A DNA stretch of 43,701 bases from an uncultured Rhodospirillales bacterium. Its GTDB lineage: Bacteria > Pseudomonadota > Alphaproteobacteria > Ferrovibrionales > Ferrovibrionaceae. The stretch lies in NCBI GenBank assembly GCA_937905845.1, contig CALCYJ010000311.1:1-43701 (forward strand), written 5' to 3'. This document shows, in pieces, positions 14,819 to 20,071 of the stretch (the first letter of the stretch is position 1; every line of letters begins with the position of its first letter). The translations under genes and the position numbers were made by a program. The notes beneath the pieces are model-generated. The model saw nothing but the letters and a program-made list of their open reading frames with translations. It was not told where the DNA came from and did not search any database.

Positions 14819-14869
14819 ACGGCCACGCCTTGCTCCGCACCCCGTCCCGGACGGATCCCCAGGGCGAAT

Positions 14870-14917
14870 GCCAGCGCGAACGCCAGCGCGAACGCCAGCG
14901 CGAACGCCAGCGCGAAC
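14870..14917 (+). repeat. Four perfect 12-bp tandem repeats upstream of ptsN
   Basis: Unit GCCAGCGCGAAC at 14870-14881, 14882-14893, 14894-14905 and 14906-14917, all identical. They end 16 bases before the ptsN ATG. Read in frame from the ATG at 14868 they would encode a Pro-Ala-Arg-Thr repeat, but the conserved IIA-Ntr N-terminus begins after them, so I place them in the untranslated leader. Confidence 0.9.
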
Positions 14918-14933
14918 GAAAGTATCAGGTGTC

Positions 14934-15398
14934 ATGGAGATTGCCGATCTGCTGCTTCCCAAGAGCGTGATCGCCCAGCTCAAGGCGACCAGCAAGAAGC
15001 AGGCATTGCAGGAGCTTTCGACCCGCGCCGCCGAACTTACCGGCCTGAGCGAGCGCGTCCTCTTCGACACGCTGATGGAGCGCGAAAGGCTCGGCACCAC
15101 CGGTGTCGGCCACGGCATCGCCATTCCCCACGGCAAGATCGGCGAGCTTGGCCGGCTCTGCGGCCTGTTCGCCCGGCTTGAGGAAGCGGTCAATTTCGAT
15201 GCCATCGACGAGGTGCCGGTCGACCTCATCTTCGTGCTGCTGGCCCCCGAAGGCGCCGGCGCCGACCATCTGAAAGCCCTGGCGCGGGTCTCGCGGCTCC
15301 TGCGCGACAAGACGATCTGCGAGAAGCTGCGCGGCACCGACAATCCCGATGCCCTCTATGCGCTCTTGACCCACTCGACGGCATCCCACGCCGCCTGA
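14934..15398 (+). CDS. ptsN: Nitrogen-PTS EIIA component
   Basis: Phosphoryl acceptor of the nitrogen phosphotransferase system (PtsP-PtsO-PtsN), which regulates potassium, nitrogen and carbon responses. Seen: 154 residues forming a single PTS EIIA type 2 domain; the phosphorylated residue is His66 in GIAIPHGK. The start is at 14934 (MEIADLLLPKSVI), where family members begin. An upstream in-frame ATG at 14868 would add 22 residues made largely of the 12-base repeats. It follows hpf by 115 bases and ends at the strong hairpin at 15430. Confidence 0.94.
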   Translation: MEIADLLLPKSVIAQLKATSKKQALQELSTRAAELTGLSERVLFDTLMERERLGTTGVGHGIAIPHGKIGELGRLCGLFARLEEAVNFDAIDEVPVDLIFVLLAPEGAGADHLKALARVSRLLRDKTICEKLRGTDNPDALYALLTHSTASHAA

Positions 15399-15412
15399 AA
15401 CGACCAGCCGGC

Positions 15413-15527
15413 ACAAGCGGAACAGCCTCAAGGGCGGCTCCCCTCTCGGGGAACCGCCCTTTCCTGTCAGACGGGCCGGTCTTGTTCTTTGATGAAACTA
15501 CTCGAAATCAGAAGCGGCTCAGGCCTT
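15413..15527. repeat. Direct repeat copy 1 (terminator plus PEP-CTERM 3' end)
   Basis: 115 bases matching 16898-17012 without gaps and with six mismatches. It holds the terminator hairpin, a spacer (with GATGAAACTACTCGAAATCA) and the last codons, Lys-Ala-stop, of the minus-strand PEP-CTERM gene. It marks the left edge of a tandem duplication. Confidence 0.93.
15430..15465. terminator. Terminator between ptsN and PEP-CTERM gene A, probably bidirectional
   Basis: AAGGGCGG and TCCCC pair with GGGGA and CCGCCCTT around a short loop (15430-15461), with TTTCC after it on the plus strand. It lies 31 bases beyond the ptsN stop and 58 bases beyond the stop of the convergent PEP-CTERM gene. Confidence 0.8.
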
Positions 15528-16187
15528 GTTACGACGACGGCGCGCCATGCCCAGCATGCCGAGGAGGCCGAGGCTGGCTCCCATGATCGCGAGCGACGAA
15601 GGTTCAGGCACCGCGGCCACGTTGAAGTCGAGCACCGCCGGCAGCCCGTTTGCTTCGACATAATAGAGCGTGAAGGCGCCGGTCACGTCGTTGTACGAAG
15701 TAGCCTCGGCGCTGGTCGGCAGCGCGCTGTCGAATACCAGGCCCGACGAATCGTACAGAGAGGCGCCATCATCATGCGTCACCGTGCCGGAAATGCCACC
15801 ACCGGTGATCGTGCCGGTGATCACCATCAGCGTCGTCTGGGAGAAGCCGCTAGCGCTGAGCTCGTTATCGGAAACGCTGCTAAGCCCGGTCGTGGTGCCG
15901 CCATCCGACGCGAAGAAAGCGCCCACCGTATCGGTGGCGCCGCCGCCGAGATCGAGATTGAGCGCACCGGTATAGGTGCCGGTGGCCAGCGCCAACCCAA
16001 GCAGTAAAGGATTCGACGGAGCGGCCTGCTCGACCGGGTCATTTATCGAACCGCCAGTATTGTCAATCTGCCAGACCGAGACGTTGAAGGTGCCGGTGAG
16101 GGGCGAGGCCTGGGCGATCCCCGCTGTCGCCAGCGCGGCGACTGCGGTCAGAGCCACGGCGAGAAACGAATTCTTGAACGACACCAT
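15519..16187 (-). CDS. PEP-CTERM sorted exported protein (copy A)
   Basis: Secreted protein of 222 residues. Seen: signal peptide of about 27 residues (MVSFKNSFLAVALTAVAALA, cleavage after IAQA), a mature region rich in Thr/Ser/Gly/Asp without Cys, and a C-terminal sorting signal: VPEPSS, a hydrophobic span, then RRRRNKA. PEP-CTERM proteins are cleaved by an exosortase (encoded elsewhere) and delivered to the cell surface or matrix. The start at 16187 is set by the signal peptide and GGGG just upstream; the longer open frame to 16634 is not used. A sigma-54 promoter lies 47-63 bases upstream. Signal peptide, tail and flanks match copy B but the mature domain does not. Confidence 0.88.
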   Translation of the reverse strand: MVSFKNSFLAVALTAVAALATAGIAQASPLTGTFNVSVWQIDNTGGSINDPVEQAAPSNPLLLGLALATGTYTGALNLDLGGGATDTVGAFFASDGGTTTGLSSVSDNELSASGFSQTTLMVITGTITGGGISGTVTHDDGASLYDSSGLVFDSALPTSAEATSYNDVTGAFTLYYVEANGLPAVLDFNVAAVPEPSSLAIMGASLGLLGMLGMARRRRNKA

Positions 16188-16233
16188 GGGTTCCCCCGTT
16201 TTAATCGATATTGCAACTGATTCTTCGCACAAA

Positions 16234-16250
16234 TGCAAAATTCTTGCCAT
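16234..16250 (-). promoter_or_regulatory. Sigma-54 promoter of PEP-CTERM gene A
   Basis: On the minus strand ATGGCAAGAATTTTGCA. TGGCA and TTGC are separated by six bases, so the GG and GC are 12 apart, as required for sigma-54. The -12 GC lies about 48 bases before the ATG at 16187. Confidence 0.82.
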
Positions 16251-16311
16251 TCCAATATTTCCAATAGAATCAAGGACACAAGCCCATAGAGGCCACAAAG
16301 CCCGCGATAAT

Positions 16312-16328
16312 TGTAAGATTCCTCGACA
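16312..16328 (-). promoter_or_regulatory. Proximal enhancer-like box of gene A
   Basis: On the plus strand TGTAAGATTCCTCGACA, about 63 bases upstream of the -24 element. It matches the box of gene B at 16 of 17 positions and that of the third PEP-CTERM gene in the outer TGTAA and CGACA. Read as an activator site by inference. Confidence 0.6.
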
Positions 16329-16588
16329 AATATGCACTTCCCCCGACAGAAAACCGCTGTGACAACACGCCAAAGACGGTGATGACGCCCTGAGCGCGAT
16401 GGGCATCCGCGCCGCGGGCCGGCCGCCCGCTTGCTTCGGGGAGATCTTCAACGGCCGGGCAGGGAAATTGTAATCCCATGATATAAATGGGTAATTTCGT
16501 GGATTCCGGATCCAGCCATCCGCCATCGCCGCCCTTCGCGGTGGGACTATGTCGGAAAATGTCCCCAGGCGACGGGCATTGGGGATGC

Positions 16589-16605
16589 TGTCAAATTCTT
16601 CGACA
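16589..16605 (-). promoter_or_regulatory. Distal enhancer-like box of gene A
   Basis: TGTCAAATTCTTCGACA on the plus strand, 14 of 17 positions equal to the proximal box; the outer TGTC/GACA form a dyad. An identical copy lies at 18064-18080 upstream of gene B. Confidence 0.5.
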
Positions 16606-16856
16606 GGGCGGCCTCGGGCACAGCCCGGATGCAATCGATTCGACGCATCCGCCGTCAGGGCATCCCATGATCCTCTGTCTCATGAAATGCTCTCAACCCG
16701 TTATTCCGAAATTAATTCCTGTCGGAAAGCGCGAGCCGGCCCTTTCCAAAGAGGATCGAGGCTCTACCGTGGCGCCGGTCCGGGGGTGGCAAACTTTTCG
16801 CCACGAGGCCCGAAACCGCATCTGGACGGCGGCCCGGGCCCGGCTTTGCGCAAGAA

Positions 16857-16898
16857 TGGCAACCCCAACGGGATTCGAACCCGTGTTTTCACCTTGAA
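16857..16898 (-). pseudogene. tRNA-Glu 3' fragment at the duplication junction
   Basis: 42 bases identical, apart from one mismatch, to the 3' part of the intact tRNA-Glu (18162-18203): CCA end, 3' acceptor strand, full T arm, variable loop and part of the anticodon arm. The 5' half is missing and is replaced by the copy of the ptsN-side flank, so it cannot make a tRNA. Confidence 0.9.
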
Positions 16899-17012
16899 CA
16901 AGCCGGACAACCTCAAGGGCGGCTCCCCTCTCGGGGAACCGCCCTTTCCTGTCAGACGGACAGGTCTTGTTCTTTGATGAAACTACTCGAAATCAGGAGC
17001 GGCTCAGGCCTT
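16898..17012. repeat. Direct repeat copy 2 (terminator plus PEP-CTERM 3' end)
   Basis: 115 bases matching 15413-15527 with six mismatches. It starts exactly where the tRNA-Glu fragment ends, which fixes the junction of the tandem duplication at about 16898. It contains the second terminator (16915-16950) and the 3' end of gene B. Confidence 0.93.
16915..16950. terminator. Duplicated terminator downstream of PEP-CTERM gene B
   Basis: The stem-loop (AAGGGCGG...CCGCCCTT) is identical to the one at 15430-15465, now 54 or more bases beyond the stop of gene B on the minus strand. Confidence 0.78.
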
Positions 17013-17666
17013 CCGGCGGCGGCGGACCAAGGCAAGACCCGCAAGACCCGCACCGAACAGCGCCAGAGTGGCCGGTTCCGGAACGGGGTTGATATTGTGC
17101 ATGCCAAGGATGAGATCGTTATAGTCGTAATCGCTGCCTTGGCTGGCGAGCAGATCTTCCAGACCCACGAAGTCCCAGTCGTTGATCGGGGCGATTGCGG
17201 TCATCACGCCATAGGACGAGCCGAGGTCCGCCTGGGTCAAAGTGCTGCGCGGCGGATCCGTCTGATAATCCGTATAGCTCGATTGAACGGCGACATGCTG
17301 CTCCCCGTCGGCAGCCAGAACGCCCGGTGCGAAGCTGGTTCCGGTCGTCTGGTTGGTGAAGGAGAAATTGAGCGTCTCGCCAACCGTGAGGCCGGAGAGC
17401 GTCACCTCGGTACCGACCGAACTCTGATTGCCGAGAAGCACCGTCGCACCGTTAAGAAACACGTCCACGTCGGCGGCGTTGCTAAAGGCGAAGACGACCT
17501 GCACCGTCGAAGCGGAGGCCGTGATCGAACAGGTCGTGCCGGCGAGTGGGTTCGGTGCACTGATGGGCGTGCTGGACACGCACGTCGCCTGGGCGATCCC
17601 CGCGGTCGCCAGCACGGCGGCGGAGGTTACAGCGGCGGCGAGAAACGTATTCCTGAACGAAACCAT
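17004..17666 (-). CDS. PEP-CTERM sorted exported protein (copy B)
   Basis: Secreted protein of 220 residues. Seen: signal peptide nearly identical to copy A (MVSFRNTFLAAAVTSAAVLA, then TAGIAQA), a different mature domain with two Cys near its start, and the sorting tail VPEPATLALFGAG ending RRRRKA. Just before the tail, WDFVGLEDLLASQGSDYDYN continues into DLILG; this acidic DxDYNDL motif resembles the end of DUF4114-type domains, which suggests calcium binding (inference). GAGGGG precedes the ATG at 17666. A sigma-54 promoter lies 44-60 bases upstream. It is presumably processed by an exosortase encoded elsewhere. Confidence 0.88.
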   Translation of the reverse strand: MVSFRNTFLAAAVTSAAVLATAGIAQATCVSSTPISAPNPLAGTTCSITASASTVQVVFAFSNAADVDVFLNGATVLLGNQSSVGTEVTLSGLTVGETLNFSFTNQTTGTSFAPGVLAADGEQHVAVQSSYTDYQTDPPRSTLTQADLGSSYGVMTAIAPINDWDFVGLEDLLASQGSDYDYNDLILGMHNINPVPEPATLALFGAGLAGLALVRRRRKA

Positions 17667-17709
17667 TGTTTCCCCTCGTCTTGATCGTTATTGCAGCTAA
17701 ACCGCTACA

Positions 17710-17726
17710 AGCAAGATTTCTGCCAA
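17710..17726 (-). promoter_or_regulatory. Sigma-54 promoter of PEP-CTERM gene B
   Basis: On the minus strand TTGGCAGAAATCTTGCT: TGGCA, six bases, TTGC, with GG and GC 12 apart. The -12 element lies about 45 bases before the ATG at 17666. Confidence 0.82.
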
Positions 17727-17787
17727 TTCGAGAACATGCGTGGAATCAAGGACCATGTCTTAAAGAGGTCACAAAGGCCGGCAAAAT

Positions 17788-17804
17788 TGTAAGATTCCCC
17801 GACA
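17788..17804 (-). promoter_or_regulatory. Proximal enhancer-like box of gene B
   Basis: TGTAAGATTCCCCGACA on the plus strand, at the same distance from the -24 element as the box of gene A. A second TTTCTGTCGG half-site follows further upstream in both copies. Confidence 0.6.
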
Positions 17805-18063
17805 AATGCTCGCCTCCACCGACAGAAAGTCATCGGGGCGACACGCCAGAGACGCCGATCGCGCCTCGCGGACGATAAAGTGCCCGGGCCGCCGCAGGGC
17901 CGCCACCCGTTCCGGCGACAGATCCGACGCGCGGGGAACAAAATTCTAATCCCGTGCGGCGGAAGGATAATTTGGTGATTTCAGGGGCCGGCCATAGGCC
18001 GCCGCCGCCCTATAACGCGACGAAATCGGGGCATGCCGGCCAGGGGGTCGGCATTGAGGATTC

Positions 18064-18080
18064 TGTCAAATTCTTCGACA
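18064..18080 (-). promoter_or_regulatory. Distal enhancer-like box of gene B
   Basis: TGTCAAATTCTTCGACA, identical to the distal box of gene A, about 340 bases upstream of the gene B promoter. Confidence 0.5.
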
Positions 18081-18161
18081 GGGCGACCTTGGCTGCGGCC
18101 CGGATGCGACTGGCCCGGGGGCATGCGCCGCCGGCGGCCCGGGCCCGGCTTTGCGCGAGAA

Positions 18162-18239
18162 TGGCGACCCCAACGGGATTCGAACCCGTGTTTTCACCTT
18201 GAAAGGGTGGCGTCCTGGGCCGGGCTAGACGATGGGGTC
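18162..18239 (-). tRNA. tRNA-Glu (UUC)
   Basis: 78 bases on the minus strand. Acceptor GACCCCA pairs with TGGGGTC, then G73 and an encoded CCA. The anticodon loop CTTTCAA (anticodon TTC) closes the stem CACC/GGTG, with a C-A mismatch at its outer pair. The T arm is ACGGG/CCCGT with loop TTCGAAT. Its 3' 42 bases are repeated at 16857-16898. Confidence 0.93.
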
Positions 18240-18251
18240 TCTGGCCGGCCT

Positions 18252-18280
18252 TCTGTACTGGGAGTAGCGGCAGAAATCAA
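18252..18280 (-). promoter_or_regulatory. Sigma-70-type promoter of tRNA-Glu
   Basis: On the minus strand TTGATT (18280-18275), a 17-base spacer, and TACAGA (18257-18252). Transcription would begin near 18245, just before the tRNA 5' end at 18239, in the short gap after recJ. Confidence 0.6.
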
Positions 18281-18298
18281 GCCGCTTGCGGCCGAAGG

Positions 18299-20071
18299 CT
18301 ATCGGCCGGACCAGGCGGCGTCCTCGATGACGAACTGGACCCGCCGCTCTCCCCGCCAATGATCGGCCCGGAGCGCGCCGGCGATCAGGAGCGACGCACC
18401 GTCCCGGCTGAACAGGGCTTCGCCGAGCGCGGTCTCCCGCGCCCGGAAGGCGATGGCTTTCAACCGGGCGCCGTCGGCGCCGAGAAGCAGGCAGCGGACA
18501 TGATTCTCTCCGACCGCCGCCGGCTGCACCACGCGGGCACCGGCGATGACGAAGCGGGGCTCCGCGTGGCCGGCGCCATAGGGCCCCGCCTGTTCCAGCA
18601 GATCGAGCAGTTCGGCGGTGGCGCCTCCAACCGCGAGAACCCCGTCGATGCCGAGGCGAGCGGCCGCATCCCCGCCCTGCGGCCCGATGCGGCCGGCGAG
18701 AAATTCGGCGAGCGGGGCGAGGTTCTCGGCCGCAATCGTCAGGCCGGCCGCCATGGCATGGCCGCCGCCGTTGATCAGCAGCCCCGCCTGGCGCGCCGCC
18801 GTCACCGCGGCGCCAAGATCGATACCCTTGACCGAGCGGCCCGAGCCGCGTCCGATCCCGTCCGCCAGGGCGATGACCAGCGCCGGCCGGCGGTAATGAT
18901 CCTTCAGGCGGCTGGCCACGATGCCGACCACGCCGGGGTGCCAGCCCTCGCCCGCCGCGATGACGACAGGCCCGGGCGGCCCCGCCGCCGCTACCTGGGC
19001 GAAAGCCTGCTCCTGCACCGCCGCCTCGATCTCCCGGCGCTCGGCGTTCAATTGGTCGAGCGCGCGCGCAAGCTCGGCGGCTTCCCCCTCGTCCTCGGTG
19101 GTCAGCAGCCGGGCGCCGAGGTCGGCCTGGCCGACCCGCCCGCCGGCATTGACCCGCGGCCCGAGAAGAAAGCCCAAATGATAGGCCCCCGGCGGCTCGG
19201 CCAGGCCCGCCACATCGGCCAGCGCCGCCAGTCCGACATTGGCGCGCCCGGCCATCACTTTCAGCCCCTGGCCGACCAGCGCGCGGTTGACGCCGGTGAG
19301 CGGCACCACGTCGCATACGGTACCGAGCGCGACGAGGTCGAGCCATTGCCGCAGATCGGGCTCGGGCCGCGTGCCGTACCAGCCTTCGGCCCGCAAGGTC
19401 CGGTTCACCGCCACCACGAGCAGGAAGGCGACGCCGACGGCGGCGAGCTGGCCAAGGCCGCCCGCCTGGTCGAGCCGGTTGGGATTGACCACGGCCAGGG
19501 CCTGCGGCAGTTCCGGTTCGGCTAGGTGATGATCGATCACGATCATTTCGAGCCCGGCTGAGGCCGCGGCGGCGAGCGGCGCATGGGCCACCGTGCCGCA
19601 ATCGACCGTGACCACGAGCGCAATCCCAGCCTCCCGCAACCGGAGCAGCGCCGGCGCGTTCGGGCCGTAACCCTCCTTGAGCCGGTCGGGGATATAGAGG
19701 GTCAGATCCCCGCCCACGGCGGCGAAGAAGCGCTTGAGCAGGGCGGAGGAGGTGGCGCCGTCGACGTCGTAATCGCCGAACACCGCCACCCGTTCGCCGG
19801 TGCGGATGGCGCGGGCAAGGCGGGAGGCCGCCTCATCCATGTCGCGCAAGGCGGAGGGATCGGGCAGGTGATCGCGCAGGCGGGGTGCGAGGAAGGTTTC
19901 CGCCGCGTCCAGGCCGACGCCGCGCCCCGCCAATACGCGCCCCACCACCTCGGGCAGCGCCAGCCGCTGGGAGAGGGCCTGCGCCAGCCGCTCGTCGTCG
20001 TTGCGCGCTTCCCAGAACCGCCCGCTGAGCGAGCGGGCAACGCCGAGGACGGGCTCCGCCGCCCGACCCAT
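18299..20071 (-). CDS. recJ: Single-stranded-DNA-specific 5'-3' exonuclease RecJ
   Basis: Processes 5' ends in RecF-pathway recombination and mismatch or base-excision repair. Seen: 590 residues, normal length. The DHH phosphoesterase metal motifs are GDYDVDGATS (Asp100, 102, 104), Asp157 in VTVDCGT and Asp180-His181-His182 (VIDHH). The DHHA1 motif is GGGHAMAAG, followed by the OB-fold C-terminal region. It is the last gene of the minus-strand alaC-hom-glpX-recJ run, 21 bases after glpX, and ends just upstream of the tRNA-Glu promoter. Confidence 0.96.
   Translation of the reverse strand: MGRAAEPVLGVARSLSGRFWEARNDDERLAQALSQRLALPEVVGRVLAGRGVGLDAAETFLAPRLRDHLPDPSALRDMDEAASRLARAIRTGERVAVFGDYDVDGATSSALLKRFFAAVGGDLTLYIPDRLKEGYGPNAPALLRLREAGIALVVTVDCGTVAHAPLAAAASAGLEMIVIDHHLAEPELPQALAVVNPNRLDQAGGLGQLAAVGVAFLLVVAVNRTLRAEGWYGTRPEPDLRQWLDLVALGTVCDVVPLTGVNRALVGQGLKVMAGRANVGLAALADVAGLAEPPGAYHLGFLLGPRVNAGGRVGQADLGARLLTTEDEGEAAELARALDQLNAERREIEAAVQEQAFAQVAAAGPPGPVVIAAGEGWHPGVVGIVASRLKDHYRRPALVIALADGIGRGSGRSVKGIDLGAAVTAARQAGLLINGGGHAMAAGLTIAAENLAPLAEFLAGRIGPQGGDAAARLGIDGVLAVGGATAELLDLLEQAGPYGAGHAEPRFVIAGARVVQPAAVGENHVRCLLLGADGARLKAIAFRARETALGEALFSRDGASLLIAGALRADHWRGERRVQFVIEDAAWSGR

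Follow-up and report, generated by a model that had tools for sequence, protein, structure and literature searches.

A tandemly duplicated PEP-CTERM gene unit whose two copies carry unrelated mature-protein modules between matching ends

Two neighbouring genes of an uncultured Rhodospirillales bacterium raise the question of how a pair of transcription units can be copies of one another at their ends and in their signal peptides and yet encode mature proteins without resemblance. The window analysed is a stretch of 43,701 nt from a metagenome-type draft assembly (374 contigs, ~88% complete), of which 3.49 Mb were searched, and the two units lie in it side by side at 15413-16897 and 16898-18203, joined at 16897/16898, with all of their parts on the minus strand. 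Repeat searching and base-by-base global alignment both uphold the unit limits and the list of parts that had been given in an earlier note on this DNA; the duplication is genuine and its anatomy is the one described there. Read in the direction of transcription, each unit consists of the 3' part of a tRNA-Glu gene with the next 30 nt, a distal box, a proximal box, a sigma-54 promoter, the start of a gene with its signal peptide, a mature domain, a PEP-CTERM tail, the codons Lys-Ala-stop and a 3' untranslated region with a strong hairpin. Gene B (17004-17666, 220 aa) comes first on the minus strand and gene A (15519-16187, 222 aa) follows, with ptsN converging on the pair from the opposite side.

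Optimal segmentation of the alignment between the units yields five blocks, and identity changes from one to the next in steps rather than along a gradient. The 3' block of unit 1 (15413-15527), with the Lys-Ala-stop codons of A, the 3' untranslated region and a terminator-like hairpin that folds in both units, is 94.8% identical to the corresponding block of unit 2, which ends gene B in the same way (16898-17012); the 109 matches in 115 positions leave exactly the six differences that had been counted earlier. Identity is 44.9% in the second block (15528-16107), a figure that we read as the level reached by a gapped alignment of unrelated DNA, 84.3% in the third (16108-16215), 63.7% in the fourth (16216-16826), the 5' blocks as a whole lying at ~64-66%, and 97.2% in the last (16827-16898), where 70 of 72 positions agree with 18132-18203. 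The limits at 15527/15528, 16107/16108, about 16215 and 16826/16827 are sharp, and identity is lost within one or two codons. Within the fourth block, a stretch of ~170 nt (about 16638-16806) is peculiar to unit 1, facing a gap in unit 2, and no second copy of it was detected in its own genome.

Both genes encode PEP-CTERM proteins, each with the PEP motif, hydrophobic stretch and basic cluster at its C-terminus and with scores above the cut-offs of PF07589 (A 23.9 and B 33.4 bits against 20.7) and TIGR02595 (A 22.4 and B 32 against 16). By inspection, both translations begin with a basic residue, a hydrophobic stretch and an AQA cleavage site, and the signal-peptide coding parts (16107-16187 in A, 17586-17666 in B) agree in 68 of 81 nt and 20 of 27 residues. 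The modules that lie between these parts and the Lys-Ala codons, at 15528-16106 in A and 17013-17585 in B, agree with each other only at the level of chance. Local (z = -0.8) and global (z = -0.3) alignments of the mature domains score lower than those of shuffled sequences, and a shuffle test at the DNA level gave no signal; the absence of resemblance claimed in the earlier note is borne out, as is its observation that A has no Cys while B has two together with a DxDYNDL motif, which reads DYDYNDL. That note had confined the unrelated part to the mature domain, which is correct as far as it goes, but the PEP-CTERM tail belongs to it as well, up to the codons just before Lys-Ala. The further statement that signals and flanks were kept holds for the signal peptides and for Lys-Ala-stop but not for the 5' blocks, which are poorly conserved.

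The two mature domains also differ in their relationships outside this locus. That of A shares 46% identity along its entire length with a counterpart in genome G307, from another family of the same class, and its alignments stand far above those of shuffled sequences both for G307 (z = 34.9) and for a PEP-CTERM protein on an Acidiphilium plasmid (z = 21.9); the plasmid search gave two partial matches for it. These homologues have different signal peptides, and the alignments place the mature domain of A in an old, separate family with an origin independent of B. The mature domain of B is DUF4114-like at a score below the Pfam cut-off (21.3 bits against 27) and matches NF033554, the model of the floc protein PepA, weakly, over part of PepA and again below cut-off (39 bits against 80). 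It had no match outside its own genome among 385 genomes of the class, two weak and partial matches among 399 genomes of the phylum, and none among plasmids. A search of PDB sequences with the mature domains found no match, and single-sequence AlphaFold models of them are poor (mean pLDDT 42 and 38).

The assembly contains 15 PEP-CTERM matches above the Pfam cut-off, and against this background the shared flanks are confined to the pair: outside the two units, the 3' and upstream blocks gave no more than tRNA and brief matches at the level of chance in the genome, and the other PEP-CTERM genes bear no notable similarity to A or B over their first 84 nt. This confinement argues that the flanks reflect duplication, and neither a general feature of PEP-CTERM genes nor chance. 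Probably, in our judgement, one of the two units had its mature-plus-tail module replaced after the tandem duplication. The duplicated stretch, a whole transcription unit under PrsR and sigma-54 control, begins inside tRNA-Glu and stops shortly before the convergent ptsN, and the join that produced the tandem has almost no homology. One copy would then have exchanged everything between the signal-peptidase site and the last codons for a mature-plus-tail module from an unrelated PEP-CTERM gene, with the promoter, boxes, signal peptide, stop codon and terminator left in place. Replacement of the middle was one of two possibilities raised in the earlier note, and both the sharp steps in identity and the occurrence of the A-type mature domain in an older family with other signal peptides favour it; since this domain is recognisable elsewhere behind other signal peptides and is dissimilar to B, one of the modules appears to have been replaced. 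The joints fall at the signal-peptidase site after Ala-Gln-Ala and at the codons just before Lys-Ala-stop, where brief stretches of similarity, in the Ala-Gln-Ala codons and in the Arg-rich ones, might have guided the exchange. The proposal that exchange took place at conserved ends therefore fits one joint, since the one before Lys-Ala borders a highly conserved end, but not the one at the signal-peptidase site. No donor for either module was detected in the assembly at its ~88% completeness, and a search with the N-terminal and C-terminal DNA of the genome's own PEP-CTERM genes brought out no prominent candidate.

The ends of the units have diverged by 3-5%, against ~36% of aligned positions in the upstream blocks. 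Even at an assumed difference of 29%, a rate chosen as conservative, the probability of two or fewer differences in 72 nt would be 9e-9 and that of six or fewer in 115 nt 1e-10, which argues that the ends and the 5' blocks did not share one common, unconstrained history. The likeliest cause of the two levels of divergence would be either later homogenisation of the unit ends by gene conversion or the import of one interior as an already diverged allele, and constraint on the hairpin and the tRNA could account for part of the conservation of the ends, although the tRNA fragment of unit 1 is not a tRNA gene and is not known to have a function. The second of these routes, in which the second unit or one interior came from the locus of another strain by way of the conserved ends, is a version of module replacement rather than an exclusive rival to it, with homologous recombination taking the place of exchange inside a duplicated copy. 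We regard it as a tentative possibility. The older, separate history that the interior seems to have had would suit it, as would the presence of A-type PEP-CTERM genes beside a transposase on conjugative Acidiphilium plasmids; against it, no such locus was found in the relatives examined and the ORFs adjoining the pair include no recognised mobile gene. On the conjugative Acidiphilium cryptum plasmid pACRY03 (L193, 54-2764) an IS1595-like transposase has two PEP-CTERM genes beside it, of which one encodes an A-type mature domain, and this neighbourhood suggests that A-type modules may travel.

Very fast divergence, the other possibility that had been raised, would derive both mature domains from one ancestor through accelerated change after the duplication. 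The nearly equal lengths of the modules (579 nt in A, 573 nt in B) speak for it and are not predicted by replacement, and the signal peptides have likewise changed, at 7 of 27 residues. The mature domain of A, however, is still recognisable in G307 and in Acidiphilium, which implies that its family changes slowly, whereas its similarity to B is at chance; the loss of identity within a codon or two at the joints counts in the same direction, and we consider common descent of the two domains very unlikely.

The tRNA end of the repeat has to be weighed separately, since 3' ends of tRNA genes are common sites of integration. The complete tRNA-Glu (ttc) gene lies at 18162-18239, and its 3' 42 nt together with the 30 nt beyond form the 72-nt repeat, whose copies at 16827-16898 and 18132-18203 are 1305 nt apart; ARAGORN makes no call on the unit 1 copy, an incomplete tRNA, and Rfam finds only tRNA, apart from a sub-threshold match on the opposite strand of the tRNA. 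A small mobile cassette inserted at the 3' end of tRNA-Glu, with the repeat as its attachment site, would fit the position of these copies. It would not by itself account for the duplicated 3' block, which tandem duplication explains; no integrase was seen on reading the ORFs of the units, no other copy of an element was found in the genome, in viral contigs (searched with a 21-nt probe) or, beyond short matches, in plasmids, and such a cassette is highly improbable. An assembly artefact that fused the alleles of two strains, which a draft in 374 contigs might invite, is likewise highly improbable, since the junction joins the middle of a tRNA to a 3' block without meaningful overlap and an assembler would not produce it from two alleles unless reads spanned it.

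PEP-CTERM/exosortase proteins under PrsK-PrsR/sigma-54 control were described by Haft et al. 2006 (PMC1569441), with a 17-nt motif 1 that ends in TTTACA and is sometimes repeated, a spacer of 32-92 nt and a sigma-54 motif 2. The predicted regulatory parts of A and B are those of this arrangement (PMC1569441): proximal PrsR-type boxes at 16312-16328 (TGTCGAGGAATCTTACA) and 17788-17804 (TGTCGGGGAATCTTACA) are followed at the published spacing by sigma-54 promoters at 16234-16249 (TGGCAAGAATTTTGCA) and 17710-17725 (TGGCAGAAATCTTGCT), and the genome encodes a PrsR response regulator (669 bits against a cut-off of 502.6). The single-gene units with their long upstream region, signal peptide and PEP-CTERM tail are likewise as described there (PMC1569441); what sets the pair apart is that the DNA repeats take in promoter, boxes, signal peptide and terminator while leaving out the mature domain, and that each unit has an extra, distal box. 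A search of the 3.49 Mb for TGTC-N9-KACA with a sigma-54 site 40-70 nt further on gave seven places, six of them upstream of PEP-CTERM genes examined and the seventh, on contig C31, ~0.75 kb before a PEP-CTERM match; read backwards, the pattern had no occurrence in the same genome. Boxes and promoter stand at nearly equal distances from the start codon in A and B, which suggests that both copies may be in use; PrsR and sigma-54 would then switch them on together, and the products would be exported by Sec and handled by an exosortase. The exosortase search gave no more than a partial hit on contig C116, to positions 2-48 of TIGR02602 and below cut-off. The distal boxes (16589-16605 and 18064-18080, both TGTCGAAGAATTTGACA) lie ~415 nt upstream of their genes, exceed the proximal boxes in symmetry and, among the PEP-CTERM genes examined, are limited to A and B.

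Dependence of a PEP-CTERM gene on RpoN has been shown in Aquincola for PepA, a floc protein (PMC9850573). Gene B resembles that case in being a PEP-CTERM gene with a predicted sigma-54 promoter and a weak match to NF033554 (PMC9850573), and differs from it in scoring below the cut-off and in having no full-length similarity. A more distant parallel is offered by secreted protein families such as the Phytophthora CRN effectors, in which duplication is reported to be followed by recombination of fragments and a conserved N-terminal export part is joined to differing downstream parts (PMC3726527); those effectors belong to another kingdom and another export route, and A and B are a single pair.

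About 108 loci of relatives, some of them short or ending near recJ, were compared by using RecJ as an anchor, the nearest RecJ being at most 67% identical. Many of these loci have a tRNA-Glu after recJ; in none of them was ptsN detected beside recJ and, the window itself excepted, none has a convincing PEP-CTERM gene there, nor did the relatives examined include an intermediate form of the locus. In the window, ptsN adjoins tRNA-Glu and recJ (14937-20071), and the failure to detect ptsN beside recJ in the relatives makes this join look specific to the source lineage. The locus had been likened to a cassette for surface variation, a comparison that the present data do not sustain: there are two units only in the genome, no third or alternative unit came up, and ptsN was not detected beside recJ in the relatives examined. 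Recurrent switching in the manner of antigens is not supported, and a wider role of the locus in variation is possible.

Module exchange at this locus is a clear but single case, in which a new surface protein would have been fitted into an existing bacterial expression shell, with the PrsR/sigma-54 promoter and signal peptide on one side and the stop-terminator block on the other. It is characteristic of PEP-CTERM proteins that their ends are alike and their middles highly diverse and for the most part unassigned, and the pair appears to catch one exchange whose joints, one at the signal-peptidase site and one immediately ahead of the stop codon, can still be read. Should the same joints turn up in further pairs, module exchange would become a testable source of PEP-CTERM diversity. 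The more general proposition, that PEP-CTERM loci are shells that repeatedly accept new mature-plus-tail modules and so diversify the exopolysaccharide-associated surface proteins of this lineage, seems unlikely to us.

Two further features of the window deserve mention. A third PEP-CTERM gene (33051-33638, plus strand; region 32908-33638) has its own box (TGTCGGAATACTTTACA) and its own sigma-54 site (TGGCATAGCGATTGCT), and its signal peptide and flanks are unrelated to those of A or B. Between hpf and ptsN, at 14866-14918, about four tandem copies of a 12-nt sequence (GCCAGCGCGAAC) coincide with the ambiguous start of ptsN.
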